The notes below the pieces were generated by a model, which saw only the letters and a list, made by a program, of their open reading frames with translations, was not told where the DNA came from and searched no databases. From Bifidobacterium breve (GTDB taxonomy: Bacteria > Actinomycetota > Actinomycetes > Nanopelagicales > Nanopelagicaceae), in the NCBI GenBank assembly GCA_943324025.2, contig CALPKA020000001.1:1-22425 (forward strand): DNA of 22,425 bases, in the 5' to 3' direction. Of this stretch, positions 17,311 through 22,425 are shown piece by piece (within the stretch, counting starts at the first letter, position 1; each line of letters opens with the position of its first letter). A program made the translations under genes and the position numbers.

Positions 17311-17352
17311 AAAACCGCCCTCCTGGTTATTGACCAAGGGGGCGGTTTTTTT
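17311..17352 (+). terminator. Strong intrinsic terminator after doxX-like gene
   Basis: Arms ACCGCCCTCCTGGT and ACCAAGGGGGCGGT pair over 14 positions with one G-U and one mismatch around a short loop TATTG, flanked by AAAA and followed by seven T. It ends the DoxX transcript and lies 37 bp before the permease start, so that gene needs its own promoter or read-through. Confidence 0.9.
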
Positions 17353-17389
17353 CTGCCGTTATTTAGTAAATATGTGGGAGTATCAGGTT

Positions 17390-18139
17390 ATGGAGATTGG
17401 CTTAGTTCTTACCGCACTTGCCAGTGGTGGTTTTATTGGCGCAGTACTTGGCTTTATAGGCGCAGGTGGTGCGATGGTCACAGTTCCTATCCTGCTTTAT
17501 CTATTTGATTTCACTCCAGCTGCTGCCACTACTGCCGCTCTTGCAGTGGTTTTTCTAGCCGCAGTTGCAGGGCTTGGTCCAAAATTTAAAAGTAAAGATG
17601 TATTGGTTAAGGAAGCACTTACGATTTGGTCACTTGGCCTTCTTACCAATATTGGCTTTGGCTTGATAGTTACCAAAATTGCAGATTCAGTAATTTTAAT
17701 TGGGTTTTCAATGGTGCTTCTAGGTGCTGCTTATTCAATGCTTAAGGGTCCAATTAAAGATTCACCTGAAAAGAAGATTCCGGTTTGGGCATTGGTATTA
17801 CTCTCACTTTTGATTGGCTCTTTAACAGGCCTATTTGGAATTGGAGGCGGCTTCTTAGCAATCCCAGTTTTAGTCTTGTTCTTTCATACACCCCAAAACA
17901 AAGCTGCAGGTACCTCCTTACTTATTATCGCCCTTAACTGTTTAACAGCATTTTTAGCCAAGTTTTCAATTTGGCAAGAGATTGATTGGGGCTATCCAGT
18001 AATAATCTCCGTAGCTGCTGTATTGATTGCTCACTACACCTCTAGATTGGCTGCAAAGACACCAACTGTTCATCTAAAACGAGGCTTTGCCTTTTTATTA
18101 ATTGGGCTTGCCGGATTTACTATTTTGGCTCAGATATAA
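17390..18139 (+). CDS. Sulfite exporter TauE/SafE family permease
   Basis: 249-residue membrane protein with about eight spans. It is an inverted duplication, with the glycine-rich signature once as GFIGAGGAMVTVPILLY (about 22-38) and again as GLFGIGGGFLAIPVL (about 147-161). The family exports or imports sulfur oxyanions and organosulfur acids, but substrates cannot be read from the sequence. I chose the ATG at 17390, with GGGAG nine bases upstream. An open frame reaches back to 17330, inside the preceding terminator, and an ATG at 17372 is possible. The aquaporin gene follows after about 22 nt, and the two are probably co-transcribed. Confidence 0.85.
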   Translation: MEIGLVLTALASGGFIGAVLGFIGAGGAMVTVPILLYLFDFTPAAATTAALAVVFLAAVAGLGPKFKSKDVLVKEALTIWSLGLLTNIGFGLIVTKIADSVILIGFSMVLLGAAYSMLKGPIKDSPEKKIPVWALVLLSLLIGSLTGLFGIGGGFLAIPVLVLFFHTPQNKAAGTSLLIIALNCLTAFLAKFSIWQEIDWGYPVIISVAAVLIAHYTSRLAAKTPTVHLKRGFAFLLIGLAGFTILAQI

Positions 18140-18163
18140 ATTTTAATCATCAAGGGGGTAGTG

Positions 18164-18829
18164 GTGAAGAAAAAACGAGCGATCGGCATGGAATTTGCTG
18201 GAACCATGATCTTGGCAATTGCTGTAGTTGGTTCCGGGCACATGGCTGCAAACCTTTCCCAAGATGGTGGAATTAGATTATTGATAAATGCATTGGCCAC
18301 AGCTGTTGGCCTAGCGGTTGTAATTAAGGTTGGTATGAATACCAGCGGTGCCCATTTTAATCCAGTAGTTACTTTAGTGATGGTAATTCTAAAGAAGATT
18401 TCAAATGAAGTAGCTGCCCTTTACATTGCAGCGCAGGTATTAGGCGCAGTACTAGGTGTTGGAGTTGCCAACCTAATTTATGATCAAGATTTTCTAAATC
18501 AATCATCAATACTTCGAGATGGTTCAAATCTGTTGGTCTCTGAAATCTTTGCAACCGCCGTATTGATCTGGATTATTCTTGCATTTGGTAAGAAAGTTGA
18601 GTTGATTGCAATCTACGTTCCAATCTGGATATTTGGGGCGATTTTGTTTACCTCAAGCACCTCCTTTGCCAATCCTGCAATAACAATTGGCAGAGTATTT
18701 ACTAACTCATTTACTGGAATTGCACTTGATTCAGTATTGCTCTTTGTGCTTGCTCAAATTATTGGTGCACTGCTTGGTTTAATATTGGCAAAGAGCCTCA
18801 CATCGGCTGGGAAGAAATCTGATGAGTAA
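18164..18829 (+). CDS. MIP/aquaporin family channel, AqpS-like (arsenic-operon type)
   Basis: Six-span channel of about 221 residues. Numbered from the GTG at 18161, the two half-helix motifs are SGAHFNPVVT (NPV at 67-69) and SFANPAITIGR (NPA at 171-173). The residue after the second NPA, normally the selectivity-filter Arg, is Ile174. Loss of that Arg is a feature of the arsenite-conducting AqpS proteins encoded in ars operons. GTG at 18164 is preferred because AGGGGG lies five bases upstream, while 18161 leaves only two. The gene overlaps arsC by 8 nt, supporting a joint role: ArsC makes arsenite and the channel lets it leave down its gradient. Plain water or glycerol transport is the alternative. 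Confidence 0.8.
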   Translation: MKKKRAIGMEFAGTMILAIAVVGSGHMAANLSQDGGIRLLINALATAVGLAVVIKVGMNTSGAHFNPVVTLVMVILKKISNEVAALYIAAQVLGAVLGVGVANLIYDQDFLNQSSILRDGSNLLVSEIFATAVLIWIILAFGKKVELIAIYVPIWIFGAILFTSSTSFANPAITIGRVFTNSFTGIALDSVLLFVLAQIIGALLGLILAKSLTSAGKKSDE

Positions 18830-19223
18830 GCCATCGGTTTTATTTGTTTGTGTTCATAATGCTGGCCGATCACAGATGGCTGCTGCATTTCTTACTCATT
18901 TAGCCGGTGATCAGATTGAAGTTAGATCCGCAGGATCTGCACCTGCTGACTTAATCAACCCTTCTGTGGTTGAGGCGCTTAAAGAGGTTGGCATTGATAT
19001 TTCAAATGAGACGCCAAAGATTTTAACTACCTCTGCTGTTGAACAATCTGATGTGGTGATCACTATGGGATGTGGAGATGCTTGCCCATTCTTCCCCGGT
19101 AAAAGATATTTAGATTGGGCACTACCTGATCCAGCTGGCCAAGGTGTGGCAGCTGTACGGCCTATTAGAGATCAGATTCGCAAATTAGTCGAAGAACTTA
19201 TTCCAACTTTAATTACGAAGTAA
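18822..19223 (+). CDS. arsC: Arsenate reductase ArsC (low-molecular-weight phosphatase family)
   Basis: 133-residue enzyme reducing arsenate to arsenite in the cytoplasm. The anion loop is CVHNAGRSQ with nucleophile Cys10 and Arg16, the arsenate-reductase version of the CX5R loop. Cys84 and Cys88 in MGCGDACPFFPG are candidates for the redox relay, and the general acid is Asp103 in ALPDPAG. The N of the loop and the GC-x-x-x-CP motif separate it from ordinary tyrosine phosphatases. It could recycle through thioredoxin or mycothiol; the sequence does not decide which. The start lies inside the end of the aquaporin gene (8-nt overlap). No ArsR, ArsB or Acr3 gene is in the window. Confidence 0.92.
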   Translation: MSKPSVLFVCVHNAGRSQMAAAFLTHLAGDQIEVRSAGSAPADLINPSVVEALKEVGIDISNETPKILTTSAVEQSDVVITMGCGDACPFFPGKRYLDWALPDPAGQGVAAVRPIRDQIRKLVEELIPTLITK

Positions 19224-19545: not shown

Positions 19546-20334
19546 GTGAAGCTAGCGATTGAAACACATGGTCATGGGCCATCCTTAGTTTTAATCCATG
19601 GCATGGGCTCGGCAGCAACTGCTTGGAAACCGATAATCCCTGAACTAGCAAAACACTTTCAAGTTATTACCGTTGATTTACCAGGCCATGGCCGAACACC
19701 CTACTCCCCAATTCAACAAATGGATCCAATCTCTTTGGCTAAATTAATCATTAGAAACCTTAAAGATATTGGAGTTGAGGAGTTTGACGTAGTTGCTAAC
19801 TCACTTGGGGGTTGGATTAGCTTTGAGATGGCAGTTTTAAATCCTGATTCAGTTAAATCAATTACCGCACTAGCACCTGCCGGACTTTGGCTAACTCCAT
19901 TTACCTCACGTTACCCAGGAGAATTGGCGCTACGAATGATGGCTAGCGGTGTTGAGAAACTAGCACCCTCTCTTTTGAATTACACCTGGGCCAAAAGAAT
20001 TGGGTTTGAAACTGTATCTCCACGATGGAAAGAACTAAGTTATGAAATTTGTTTAGATGCAACAAGTGCAATGGCGCAATCAACCGGATACTTTCCTGCT
20101 TGGGATGCTTTACTTGGCAAAAGGTTTGATAAACAGATCAGCGCTGAAATTCCAATCACTATTATTTTCGGAGATTCAGACCATACCCTGCCTGCCAAGA
20201 CATGTCAGGAGAGATCCCTTGCTCCATCTCACTCTAAATGGGTTATCTTGCCGCAGACCGGACATGCTCCAATGTGGGATAGCCAGCAAGAGGTTATCTC
20301 AGAGATTTTGTTAACCACAAGGGTGTCAAAATGA
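19546..20334 (+). CDS. Alpha/beta hydrolase
   Basis: 262-residue enzyme of the alpha/beta-hydrolase fold. The oxyanion segment LVLIHGMGSAATAW (14-27) is followed by VDLPGHGRTPYSP (43-55), the nucleophile elbow ANSLGG with Ser86, an acid in IIFGDSDHTLP, and the catalytic His in LPQTGHAPMW, so the triad is complete. A small cap domain lies between them. The start is a GTG, since the ATG two bases earlier reads straight into a stop. Its stop overlaps the CrtA-like start by 4 nt, so it heads the carotenoid operon. It could cleave or form esters of pigments or precursors, but the substrate cannot be deduced. Confidence 0.85.
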   Translation: MKLAIETHGHGPSLVLIHGMGSAATAWKPIIPELAKHFQVITVDLPGHGRTPYSPIQQMDPISLAKLIIRNLKDIGVEEFDVVANSLGGWISFEMAVLNPDSVKSITALAPAGLWLTPFTSRYPGELALRMMASGVEKLAPSLLNYTWAKRIGFETVSPRWKELSYEICLDATSAMAQSTGYFPAWDALLGKRFDKQISAEIPITIIFGDSDHTLPAKTCQERSLAPSHSKWVILPQTGHAPMWDSQQEVISEILLTTRVSK

Positions 20335-20993
20335 TTACCGTCATTTATTTTTGGCGAATCAAAAGAATCTATCTACCGTTGGCGATATTAAATATGGCAA
20401 CAAATAAATTCTTATTAAAAGTAATACTTGGCAGAAGTTTTATTAAAATGTTAGGCACTGGTAAAGGTGAGAGCTTTACTCCCAAAGATGCAGACTCATT
20501 TCGTTGGGGAATTTTGATTACGACCAAAGAATCCAACATTAAGAAGTTTGATTCTTCATTTGTGATTAAGCTTTGGCAAAAAATTGCTCGCTCGCAATAT
20601 AGAGCTGTGTTAAGACCAATTTCATCACACGGAGTATGGTCAGGACAAACTCCTTTTGAAAGTGAAAAATTTGAATGGAATGGCAAAGTTGCTGCAATTA
20701 CAAGAGCGAGAATTGTTTGGTCAAAGAATCTACAATTTTGGCGTGCAGTGCCACCAGTTACTGAAAGTTTGCATAAATCTGCTGGCCTAATAAGTGCCAT
20801 TGGTATTGGCGAAGCCCCGATCGGACTTCAGGGTACTTTTTCTCTTTGGGAGAATTCCCAAGCCCTGAAGCAGTTTGCATACCAAGGTCAGGCTCACCTA
20901 CAGGCAATCGCAGCCACTGAAACCAATAAATGGTATTCCGAGGAGTTGTTTGCTCGGTTTGCAGTGATACAGGAGCAGGGCACACTCGACTGA
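20331..20993 (+). CDS. crtA: CrtA-like carotenoid C-2 oxygenase (spheroidene monooxygenase family)
   Basis: 220-residue protein that I match by memory to spheroidene monooxygenase CrtA. Shared landmarks in order are GTGKGESFTP (42-51), the block VWSGQTPF (102-109) matching the WSGQSPF of purple bacterial CrtA, TRARIVWSKNLQFWRAVP (about 124-141), IGIGEAPIGLQGTFSLW (157-173) and the C-terminal WYSEELFARFAV (201-212). CrtA adds oxygen at C-2 of acyclic carotenoid ends, giving 2-keto groups in purple bacteria; a related flavobacterial enzyme is a 2-hydroxylase for myxol. It overlaps the hydrolase by 4 nt and is followed 17 nt later by cruF. Which product is made here, hydroxyl or ketone, is not readable. 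Confidence 0.78.
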   Translation: MITVIYFWRIKRIYLPLAILNMATNKFLLKVILGRSFIKMLGTGKGESFTPKDADSFRWGILITTKESNIKKFDSSFVIKLWQKIARSQYRAVLRPISSHGVWSGQTPFESEKFEWNGKVAAITRARIVWSKNLQFWRAVPPVTESLHKSAGLISAIGIGEAPIGLQGTFSLWENSQALKQFAYQGQAHLQAIAATETNKWYSEELFARFAVIQEQGTLD

Positions 20994-21010
20994 TGAGGCA
21001 CAATTAGCCC

Positions 21011-21823
21011 ATGTCACTTCGCCAATTTTACCCTCGTAAAAATAGCAGAAGGCAAGTTGCCCCTTGGAAGTTATATTCGCTCTATCTAACTCTTGCAATT
21101 GCAATCGGTCTTCAAATCTCCTATCCACTTATTGATGGTGAAGTTCTAAGAGTTGTCACTATTGCGACCGTTTACTGGGCAGCTGCAGCAATGTTCTTGC
21201 ACGCAATTTTTGCTTATGGAATTGTTTATGCAATTCAGTTTTTATCCATAACCTTCACTTACGCATTAGTAATTGAGCAAATTGGAAGTCGCACTGGCTG
21301 GCCATTTGGAAGCTATGAATACTCAGGAAGTTTGGGATATCAAATATATGGCGTGCCATTAGTTGTCCCCTTTGCATGGGTAATGCTTGCGCATCCAATA
21401 TTTATTGCCGCACGTAAGGTTACAAAAAATTGGGTGTTTTTATATGGCGGGATTGGGATGATGGCCTGGGATCTATTCCTAGATCCACAAATGGTTTCTG
21501 CAGAAAGATGGACTTGGAGCTTTACCGGCTCTCATGTGCCATTTCAGCCAGATATTCCATTATCAAACGCCTTTGGTTGGCTACTAACTGGAATGGGATT
21601 AATGGCACTTCTGAATTTAACCCTAAGAAGTGATCGCAGAAAAATTGGTACGTCAACTTTAGTGCCAGATGCTCTTCTCTTTTGGACATGGTTTGCCGGA
21701 GTGATTGGAAATCTCTTTTTCTTTGACCAACCAGGAGTTGCATTTATCGGTGGGCTTGTTTTTGGTTTGTTTTTACTTCCTTACATTTTCTTATTGCGTT
21801 TTGGTCCGCCTGCCAATAGTTAA
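21011..21823 (+). CDS. cruF: CruF-type carotenoid hydratase (DUF422 membrane protein)
   Basis: 270-residue membrane protein with about seven spans. The family signatures are clear: SRTGWPFGSYEYSGSLG (93-109), GVPLVVPFAWVMLAHP (114-129) and MAWDLFLDPQMV (151-162). CruF proteins hydrate the terminal 1,2 double bond of carotenoids, giving a tertiary hydroxyl at C-1'. Members occur in cyanobacteria (myxol pathway), haloarchaea (bacterioruberin pathway) and actinobacteria. GAGG is 12 bases before the ATG, slightly far. Its stop shares one base with the start of the glycosyltransferase (TAATG), a strong sign of joint function. Confidence 0.88.
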   Translation: MSLRQFYPRKNSRRQVAPWKLYSLYLTLAIAIGLQISYPLIDGEVLRVVTIATVYWAAAAMFLHAIFAYGIVYAIQFLSITFTYALVIEQIGSRTGWPFGSYEYSGSLGYQIYGVPLVVPFAWVMLAHPIFIAARKVTKNWVFLYGGIGMMAWDLFLDPQMVSAERWTWSFTGSHVPFQPDIPLSNAFGWLLTGMGLMALLNLTLRSDRRKIGTSTLVPDALLFWTWFAGVIGNLFFFDQPGVAFIGGLVFGLFLLPYIFLLRFGPPANS

Positions 21824-22425
21824 TGCAACTTCTATTAGCGATATGCGCTTTAGCATGCTTTTTAGTAATTCTAAATAGCCTCACAATTAAAGTAATCAAG
21901 GATTCAAATGCTTCAATTCTTGATTCGGTTTCGATTTTGATCCCAATGCGCAATGAGTCTGCAAATGCTGCAGATTGCCTAGAATCTATATTGAATCAAA
22001 CTGGTCTAGACAAGGTTGAAATTCTCTGCCTTGATGATGCTTCTACTGACAATACTGCAGAAATCATAAAAGGATTTCCTACAGTTAAATACCTTCCGGG
22101 TAGTAACCCACCAGAAGATTGGCTAGGCAAATTATGGGCATGCCATACCCTGGTAGAGAAAAGCACTGGGGAGTATCTTGTTTTTGTTGACGCCGATGTT
22201 AGGTTAAGTAAAAATGCCGTTGCAAGTTCAATATCGAAAATGGGTAATTGGGATTTCGTTTCTCCGTATCCTAGGCAAATTGCATCAGGCTTCATTCAAA
22301 AAGTATTTCAGCCACTGCTGCAATGGTCATGGCTTGCCTCTGTTCCACTTTTACTAGCTCAAAAACTTTCAATTAAATCGATGGCTGTTGCAAATGGCCA
22401 ATTTTTAATCGTTAAAAGACAGGCT
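21823..22425 (+). CDS. cruG: CruG-like carotenoid glycosyltransferase, family GT2, 3' end cut off
   Basis: 201 codons run to the window edge in frame. The product starts with a membrane-anchoring hydrophobic segment (about 2-20), then the GT2 fold: VSILIPMRNES (36-46), LCLDDASTDNT (68-78) and the metal-binding FVDADVRL (121-128) with the D-x-D at Asp123/Asp125. PPEDWLGKLWACHTL (96-110) is a segment shared with CruG-like and hopanoid-type glycosyltransferases. In cyanobacteria CruG glycosylates the 2'-hydroxyl made next to the CruF hydroxyl. The one-base overlap with cruF supports that pairing. Sugar donor and acceptor are inferred. More C-terminal membrane spans are expected beyond the window. 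Confidence 0.82.
   Translation, partial: MQLLLAICALACFLVILNSLTIKVIKDSNASILDSVSILIPMRNESANAADCLESILNQTGLDKVEILCLDDASTDNTAEIIKGFPTVKYLPGSNPPEDWLGKLWACHTLVEKSTGEYLVFVDADVRLSKNAVASSISKMGNWDFVSPYPRQIASGFIQKVFQPLLQWSWLASVPLLLAQKLSIKSMAVANGQFLIVKRQA

Follow-up and report, generated by a model that had tools for sequence, protein, structure and literature searches.

Closest described systems

Sioxanthin of Salinispora (Micromonosporaceae) is an actinobacterial carotenoid that is glycosylated at one end. As reportedly described by Richter in 2015, it combines an end group bearing a 2'-hydroxyl, a 3',4'-didehydro bond and a 1'-glucosyl residue with an aryl (phi) ring, and its genes are scattered. Phleixanthophyll is deoxymyxol 1'-glucoside. 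A gene cassette, crtA-cruF-cruG-crtD, begins in a 22,425-nucleotide (nt) stretch of DNA (the window), which comprises positions 1–22425 of contig C1 in a Nanopelagicaceae genome assembly (G000; 776,869 bases in 142 contigs, 62.8% complete). Judged from its genes, the cassette very probably makes an orange, sugar-bearing pigment of the type known from other actinobacteria. In contrast to sioxanthin, the genes are gathered in one locus here, and a beta ring is suggested by those for the cyclase; if this ring is bare, the predicted aglycone and glycoside type are those of phleixanthophyll.

Sioxanthin provides an actinobacterial precedent (PMC5765111), and phleixanthophyll has been named for Nocardia (PMC5822342). 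The flavobacterial myxol cluster (Nonlabens spongiae, Flavobacterium P99-3) resembles the present locus in the clustering of CruF and CrtD with a CrtA-type enzyme, CrtA-OH, that acts on a monocyclic substrate; there, the 3-hydroxyl is introduced by CrtZ and the excerpted account lists no glycosyltransferase (PMC11855829), whereas here a CruG-like enzyme is present and no CrtZ-type match was obtained in nine genomes. The cyanobacterial myxol 2'-fucoside pathway also employs a CruF-type hydratase and a CruG-type family 2 glycosyltransferase (GT2), but the proteins found here lie far from those enzymes (58 bits against a cut-off of 400 for CruF and 104 against 600 for a complete CruG orthologue). 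Purple-bacterial CrtA is homologous to the CrtA-like protein over the full length, with 31–35% identity and common near-invariant residues, but forms a separate clade. The gene described here is linked to cruF, cruG and crtD, whereas bchI lies beside crtA in all six purple-bacterial records opened, with phytoene desaturase on the other side in five. The purple-bacterial enzyme is a non-P450 protein with a five-coordinated haem that needs O2 and reduced ferredoxin (PMC10604819). Two sources confine CrtA to purple bacteria or call it specific for them (PMC10604819, PMC11855829), and crtA was earlier listed in Micromonospora (PMC5765111). No description of the cassette in Nanopelagicaceae was found in the literature, a weak negative, as the likeliest annotators (Dwulit-Smith 2018 and Richter 2015) lay outside the coverage.

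The carotenoid locus

Three genes at the end of the window lie on one strand and are separated by 17 nt and then −1 nt, as read from the sequence. The start of the first is overlapped by 4 nt by an alpha/beta-hydrolase gene, and the last is truncated by the window end.

19546..20334, + strand: abH, alpha/beta hydrolase (Pfam Abhydrolase_1, 83 bits; 5' of crtA in 41 of 49 loci)
20331..20993, + strand: crtA-like gene, 220 amino acids (aa), predicted haem-dependent carotenoid C-2' oxygenase (NCBIfam NF045923; identity to CrtA; tree; H189)
21011..21823, + strand: cruF-like gene, 270 aa, predicted carotenoid 1',2'-hydratase (Pfam PF04240, 115 bits; TIGR03460, 100 bits, below cut-off)
21823..22425 (open), + strand: 5' part (201 aa within the window) of a cruG-like GT2 glycosyltransferase gene (Pfam Glycos_transf_2, 75 bits; rest on contig C63)

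A preliminary description of this DNA had read the three genes as one unit encoding a CrtA-like oxygenase, CruF and CruG. The arrangement is confirmed on the + strand, and the identities are borne out at the family level by profile matches. The 270-aa protein scores 115.2 bits against Pfam Caroten_synth (PF04240, cut-off 25), which places it among CruF-type hydratases. It matches three CruF models, all below cut-off; the cyanobacterial CruF equivalog NF045693 gives 58.2 bits (cut-off 400) and the archaeal bisanhydrobacterioruberin hydratase equivalog TIGR03460 gives 100.2 bits (cut-off 154.7). The cruG fragment encodes a GT2 protein with nearly equal scores for the HpnB model (62 bits) and the CruG model NF045692 (59.8 bits). 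For the complete orthologue from the same genus, the CruG model is the best (104.3 bits, below its cut-off of 600) and HpnB is next (95 bits).

The locus continues on other contigs of the same genome. Window positions 21954–22425 match C63:1–472 with 452 of 472 bases identical, and the 4% mismatch between the overlapping contigs suggests that strains were mixed or that the assembly is redundant. On C63, the reading frame of cruG runs to position 934, directly abutting crtD at 935. Next come a pgsA-like gene and metF, both in the opposite orientation, and then crtE. The crtD product exceeds the cut-off of the CrtI/CrtD subfamily model TIGR02734 (305 bits, cut-off 238), and its best model is the CrtD model NF045637 (328 bits, below its own cut-off of 580). 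On contig C91 lie the end of crtI, then crtB and a pair of genes that encode a lycopene cyclase domain. The same gene order is found in a single stretch in three complete genomes of the same genus (G001, G004 and G013). The crtA-cruF-cruG genes of the window are thus the first part of a full carotenoid locus, in which the 3',4'-desaturase gene crtD is the next gene. At the family level, the gene set of a phleixanthophyll/sioxanthin-type end group (1'-hydration, 3',4'-desaturation, 2'-oxidation and glycosylation) is present and linked to a lycopene pathway.

Conservation of the cassette

The distribution of these genes was determined in 100 genomes (the window's own and 99 relatives), of which 61 belong to Nanopelagicaceae and 39 to other families of the class. 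Overall, crtA was matched in 70 genomes, cruF (PF04240) in 80, crtB (PF00494) in 90, rhodopsin in 54 and blh in 16. Within Nanopelagicaceae, crtA is present in 54 genomes, cruF in 57 and rhodopsin in 53; the corresponding numbers in the other families are 16, 23 and 1. Across the phylum, crtA was found in 25 of 296 evenly drawn genomes (the window's own counted). A CrtA had been called unexpected in an actinobacterium; these counts contradict that view, and the frequency within the family also leads us to reject chance or artefact as an explanation. The preliminary description is thus mostly right in its chemistry and wrong about the surprise.

PF04240 is present in all 70 crtA-bearing genomes versus 10 of 30 crtA-free genomes. 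Outside Nanopelagicaceae, the association is 16/16 with crtA versus 7/23 without it (Fisher p 7e-6, uncorrected for kinship), and the 16 crtA-bearing genomes represent 13 families. The co-occurrence of cruF and cruG with crtA in relatives, a survey proposed in advance, was examined in 49 crtA loci: family genomes supplied 35, and contig records of unstated family the other 14. One of them is the window itself (L002), and at least six pairs represent the same place twice (L006/L032, L008/L033, L021/L034, L023/L035, L027/L039 and L048/L078), so that the 49 loci correspond to about 43 places. On the same strand, cruF adjoins crtA in 48 of the 49 loci, and the exception (L044) is cut by a contig end. 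Similarly, cruG is found in 46 loci and the remainder are truncated, and every locus long enough to show it, 17 in all (16 places), has crtD downstream. Of the 16 crtA loci outside the family, 11 include cruF in the same stretch and 8 include a crtD-like match. Among the five such loci without a nearby cruF, crtA is at the contig end in L053 and L064 but not in L052, L055 and L063.

The CrtA-like protein

The 220-aa protein matches the spheroidene monooxygenase CrtA model (NF045923) with 153.5 bits (E 5.2e-45) over residues 6–218. The alignment spans profile positions 7–222 of 226 and is thus full-length, which places the protein in the CrtA superfamily. The plasmid records yielded ten matches, each with a query coverage of 80% or more. 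Eight are alphaproteobacterial proteins annotated as spheroidene monooxygenase (31–35% identity), and the others are from Deinococcus (36.5%) and Nonomuraea (36.4%). No flavobacterial CrtA homologue appeared in the plasmid records or in one scan of genome contig records, which returned only actinobacterial records, and a search of solved structures with the CrtA-like sequence gave no match. Within Nanopelagicaceae records, the crtA of L032 is 71% identical to that of the window. Comparison with three relatives of the same genus gave nonsynonymous divergence (dN) of 0.19–0.22 and saturated synonymous divergence (dS), 2.5–2.8 or not computable. Like the counts and the adjacency of cruF, this speaks against a chance reading frame.

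A tree was built from 63 rows of actinobacterial, purple-bacterial and Deinococcus CrtA homologues. The 40 rows labelled Nanopelagicaceae (30 from family genomes or the window and 10 from records of unstated family) form one clade (99/92), which 15 other actinobacterial rows adjoin (97/90). The six purple-bacterial rows form a separate clade (100/100) on a long branch (1.53). Deinococcus and Nonomuraea lie on long branches with unsure placement, and eight rows have an odd letter composition. Clustering with the CrtA family had been set beforehand as a test of the assignment, and no placement outside the family was observed in this tree, whose reference rows are purple-bacterial CrtA without flavobacterial CrtA-OH. 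By sequence, the window protein is a full-length CrtA homologue within an actinobacterial clade. Among the 63 rows, including the six purple-bacterial ones, 27 positions are identical in at least 97%, and these include one histidine, H189, a candidate haem ligand of the CrtA homologue.

A recent, lineage-specific acquisition from purple bacteria is rejected, given that the family rows form one clade with other actinobacteria adjacent to it. An older transfer, or a flavobacterial origin of the whole actinobacterial CrtA clade, is still conceivable. Two records deserve separate mention. L045 (CAMCYS010000002.1) is titled Bifidobacterium breve, and its crtA falls inside the Nanopelagicaceae clade; it is probably a mislabelled metagenome-assembled genome. 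On a Deinococcus taeanensis plasmid (L094, 8878–9663), the CrtA homologue is annotated as hypothetical, with no annotated carotenoid gene within 9 kilobases (kb).

Predicted route and product

In the proposed route, CrtE, CrtB and CrtI would yield lycopene, and the two-gene lycopene cyclase would close one end to a beta ring to give gamma-carotene. At the other end, CruF would add water to give a 1'-hydroxyl, CrtD would introduce the 3',4' double bond and the CrtA homologue, as a haem oxygenase, would hydroxylate C-2'. Finally, CruG would glycosylate the diol end, with C-1' as the likelier position. The product would be a deoxymyxol (plectaniaxanthin) glycoside of the phleixanthophyll/sioxanthin type. 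With a hexose and a bare ring, its formula would be C46H66O7 (monoisotopic mass 730.481, calculated by hand), and a 4-keto ring from a CrtO-like enzyme would change it to C46H64O8 (744.460). Gene identities at the family level, linkage, conservation and co-occurrence are observed, and the individual reactions, their order, the sugar and its position, and the ring are all predictions. A pathway leading to an end group with a sugar and with oxygen at C-1' and C-2', as put forward in the preliminary description, is supported at the family level, although C-1' instead of C-2' may carry the sugar.

Deoxymyxol glycoside is the best prediction because of results obtained with Nonlabens spongiae genes in lycopene-making Escherichia coli, in which CrtY, CruF and CrtD led to 1'-hydroxytorulene and CrtA-OH led on to deoxymyxol (PMC11855829). 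We put the probability that crtA-cruF-cruG-crtD is a carotenoid end-group cassette making deoxymyxol glycoside at roughly 0.75. Myxol proper is rejected as the product, as no CrtZ-type match (PF04116) was obtained in the nine genomes.

Physiological role

The pigment is most likely a membrane photoprotectant and antioxidant, and an additional role as an antenna for actinorhodopsin is possible in the rhodopsin-bearing members. It has also to be considered whether light harvesting in a complex with actinorhodopsin is the main role. The high frequency of rhodopsin in the family (53 of 61 genomes) speaks for this, and the window's own genome encodes an actinorhodopsin on contig C78. This protein aligns a glycine to the residue counted as Gly156 of xanthorhodopsin, which we take to be the carotenoid-window residue, and the glycine motif is present in six of seven rhodopsin loci scanned (not in L070). 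Salinixanthin has the same end group as the predicted pigment, together with an acyl and a 4-keto group. A review states that actinorhodopsins retain the glycine for antenna carotenoids (PMC9728251), and the actinorhodopsin of Candidatus Aquiluna, from a different lineage, is reported to bind its native carotenoid upon reconstitution (PMC8113403). A keto group is not a general antenna requirement, since a 2026 study attributes energy transfer in a freshwater xanthorhodopsin to hydroxylated xanthophylls instead of salinixanthin (PMC13093654).

The distribution of the genes argues in the other direction. No rhodopsin match was obtained in 15 of the 16 crtA-bearing genomes outside the family, and crtA occurs without rhodopsin in 3 of the 29 family genomes that are at least 90% complete. 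In these 29 genomes the association of crtA with rhodopsin gives p 0.14; the value of p 0.04 over all 61 is confounded by incompleteness. Furthermore, the complete genomes G001, G004 and G013 have the rhodopsin gene at a great distance from the crt locus. A main role as a rhodopsin-bound antenna is unlikely on balance. Somewhat less probable still is the fuller proposal that acI-type lake actinobacteria recruited a 2'-hydroxylated, glycosylated monocyclic carotenoid, with or without a 4-keto group and made through an overlooked CrtA clade, as the actinorhodopsin antenna. If the antenna reading were true, the pigment would be an independent counterpart of salinixanthin in xanthorhodopsin.

A separate observation concerns retinal. 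In the same genus (G000–G024), rhodopsin was matched in 22 of 25 genomes and the Blh family (PF15461) in 2 of 25, and RPE65-type enzymes were matched in none of the nine genomes checked, four of them of the same genus. The complete genomes G001, G004 and G013 contain rhodopsin and gave no Blh or RPE65 match. Genomes of this genus, complete ones included, thus carry rhodopsin without a recognised retinal-forming enzyme, and in those three the modified carotenoid is the sole visible end point of the carotenoid genes.

Alternative readings of the chemistry

Several observations weigh against the assignment of the cassette to deoxymyxol glycoside. The CrtA-like protein scores 153.5 bits, below the NF045923 equivalog cut-off of 300, and does not qualify as a Rhodobacter-type CrtA equivalog. 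CruF, CruG and CrtD likewise fall below their NCBIfam equivalog cut-offs, and because all four do so, the substrate or product could be shifted. The alpha/beta hydrolase has no assigned step in the proposed route. Of the 49 loci, 41 have its gene 5' of crtA in the same orientation; two loci are truncated (L014 and L030), and the six that have room for it and lack it represent four places (L006/L032, L008/L033, L010 and L011). In addition, the complete family genome G026 retains the hydrolase, cruF, cruG and crtD and gave no crtA match (L092, 5507–7199). There, 58 bases separate the end of the hydrolase open reading frame (ORF) from the cruF ORF, and no rhodopsin match was obtained either. Because cruF, cruG and crtD are retained in G026 without crtA, the 2' step is dispensable in that genome.

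The ring is a further point to weigh. No CrtW-type match (PF00487) was obtained in the nine genomes, and each of eight near-complete genomes contains exactly two CrtI-family genes above cut-off, crtI and crtD. However, the four weak CrtI-family hits that were examined, in G004, G013, G032 and G050, have CrtO as the best model (88–107 bits, cut-off 1000), all away from the crt locus:

L105, 602–2134 (G013): CrtO-like flavoprotein ORF, below threshold
L106, 2–1414 (G004): CrtO-like flavoprotein ORF, below threshold, cut by the edge of the stretch examined
L107, 84–1631 (G050): CrtO-like flavoprotein ORF, below threshold
L108, 515–2050 (G032): CrtO-like flavoprotein ORF, below threshold

Judged by these scores, the four ORFs could encode ketolases that add a 4-keto group or could be other relatives, and the absence of any CrtO-type ketolase, previously assumed, is withdrawn. 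Cytochrome P450 is also present in five of the nine genomes. The beta ring may carry a further group rather than stay bare. The CrtO-like ORFs leave the odds of the deoxymyxol glycoside reading unchanged, because those depend on the opposite end group.

The sugar could be attached to the 2'-oxygen, as in cyanobacterial myxol 2'-glycosides, in which case the 2'-hydroxyl made by CrtA would be obligatory for CruG. The best NCBIfam model of the complete cruG orthologue, at 104 bits, is indeed the 2'-O-glycosyltransferase CruG, but this score is far under the cut-off of 600 and HpnB follows closely at 95 bits. The sugar is at C-1' in both phleixanthophyll and sioxanthin. G026 keeps cruG without crtA, consistent with a CruG that needs no 2'-hydroxyl. 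Attachment at the 2'-oxygen is accordingly doubtful.

CrtA could also act in the same cassette as a 2'-ketolase, through two hydroxylations and loss of water, and the product would then be a 2'-keto-1'-hydroxy carotenoid (aglycone C40H54O2) with the sugar at C-1'. The only rows of the tree named for a function are purple-bacterial CrtA, described as 2-ketolases that work via double hydroxylation (PMC10604819), which counts against an enzyme that stops at the alcohol, and the 27 near-invariant positions are common to purple-bacterial and actinobacterial rows. On the other hand, the long branch (1.53) separates the purple-bacterial rows, and the enzyme of Nonlabens and Flavobacterium P99-3, which works with CruF and CrtD on a monocyclic carotenoid, is reported to stop at the alcohol (PMC11855829). 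A ketolase is quite improbable here.

That the CrtA-like protein acts on a non-carotenoid substrate as a passenger in the cluster is highly improbable: a weak Pfam match to DUF3291 below cut-off, the score under the CrtA equivalog cut-off, the Deinococcus homologue without an annotated carotenoid gene within 9 kb and the 3 of 16 outside-family loci without cruF near crtA though not at the very contig end would fit it, but cruF co-occurs in 70 of 70 crtA-bearing genomes and the two genes stay together throughout the family and in 11 of the 16 loci beyond it.

Other genes in and around the locus

Upstream in the window (17330–19223), genes for a TauE-family permease, a MIP-family channel and an ArsC-like arsenate reductase are consecutive, and the last two overlap by 8 nt. 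The pair of MIP channel and ArsC-like protein presumably resembles the arsenate reductase of other bacteria that is coupled to arsenite exit through an aquaglyceroporin.

Between crtD and crtE, a pgsA-like gene for a CDP-alcohol phosphatidyltransferase lies in reversed orientation in L075 (4892–5509) and, together with metF, in L076 (4780–6260). Other actinobacterial families (e.g. L054, L057 and L061) likewise have the pgsA-like gene and metF close to crt genes, and we read the association of pgsA-like, metF and crt genes as an old gene neighbourhood.

Significance of the cassette

The actinobacterial cassette fits badly with claims that CrtA is restricted to purple bacteria. It also predicts a pigment and its mass. 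The locus very probably encodes an actinobacterial glycosylated-carotenoid pathway, not a new kind of system, and most genomes of one family of lake bacteria retain it.

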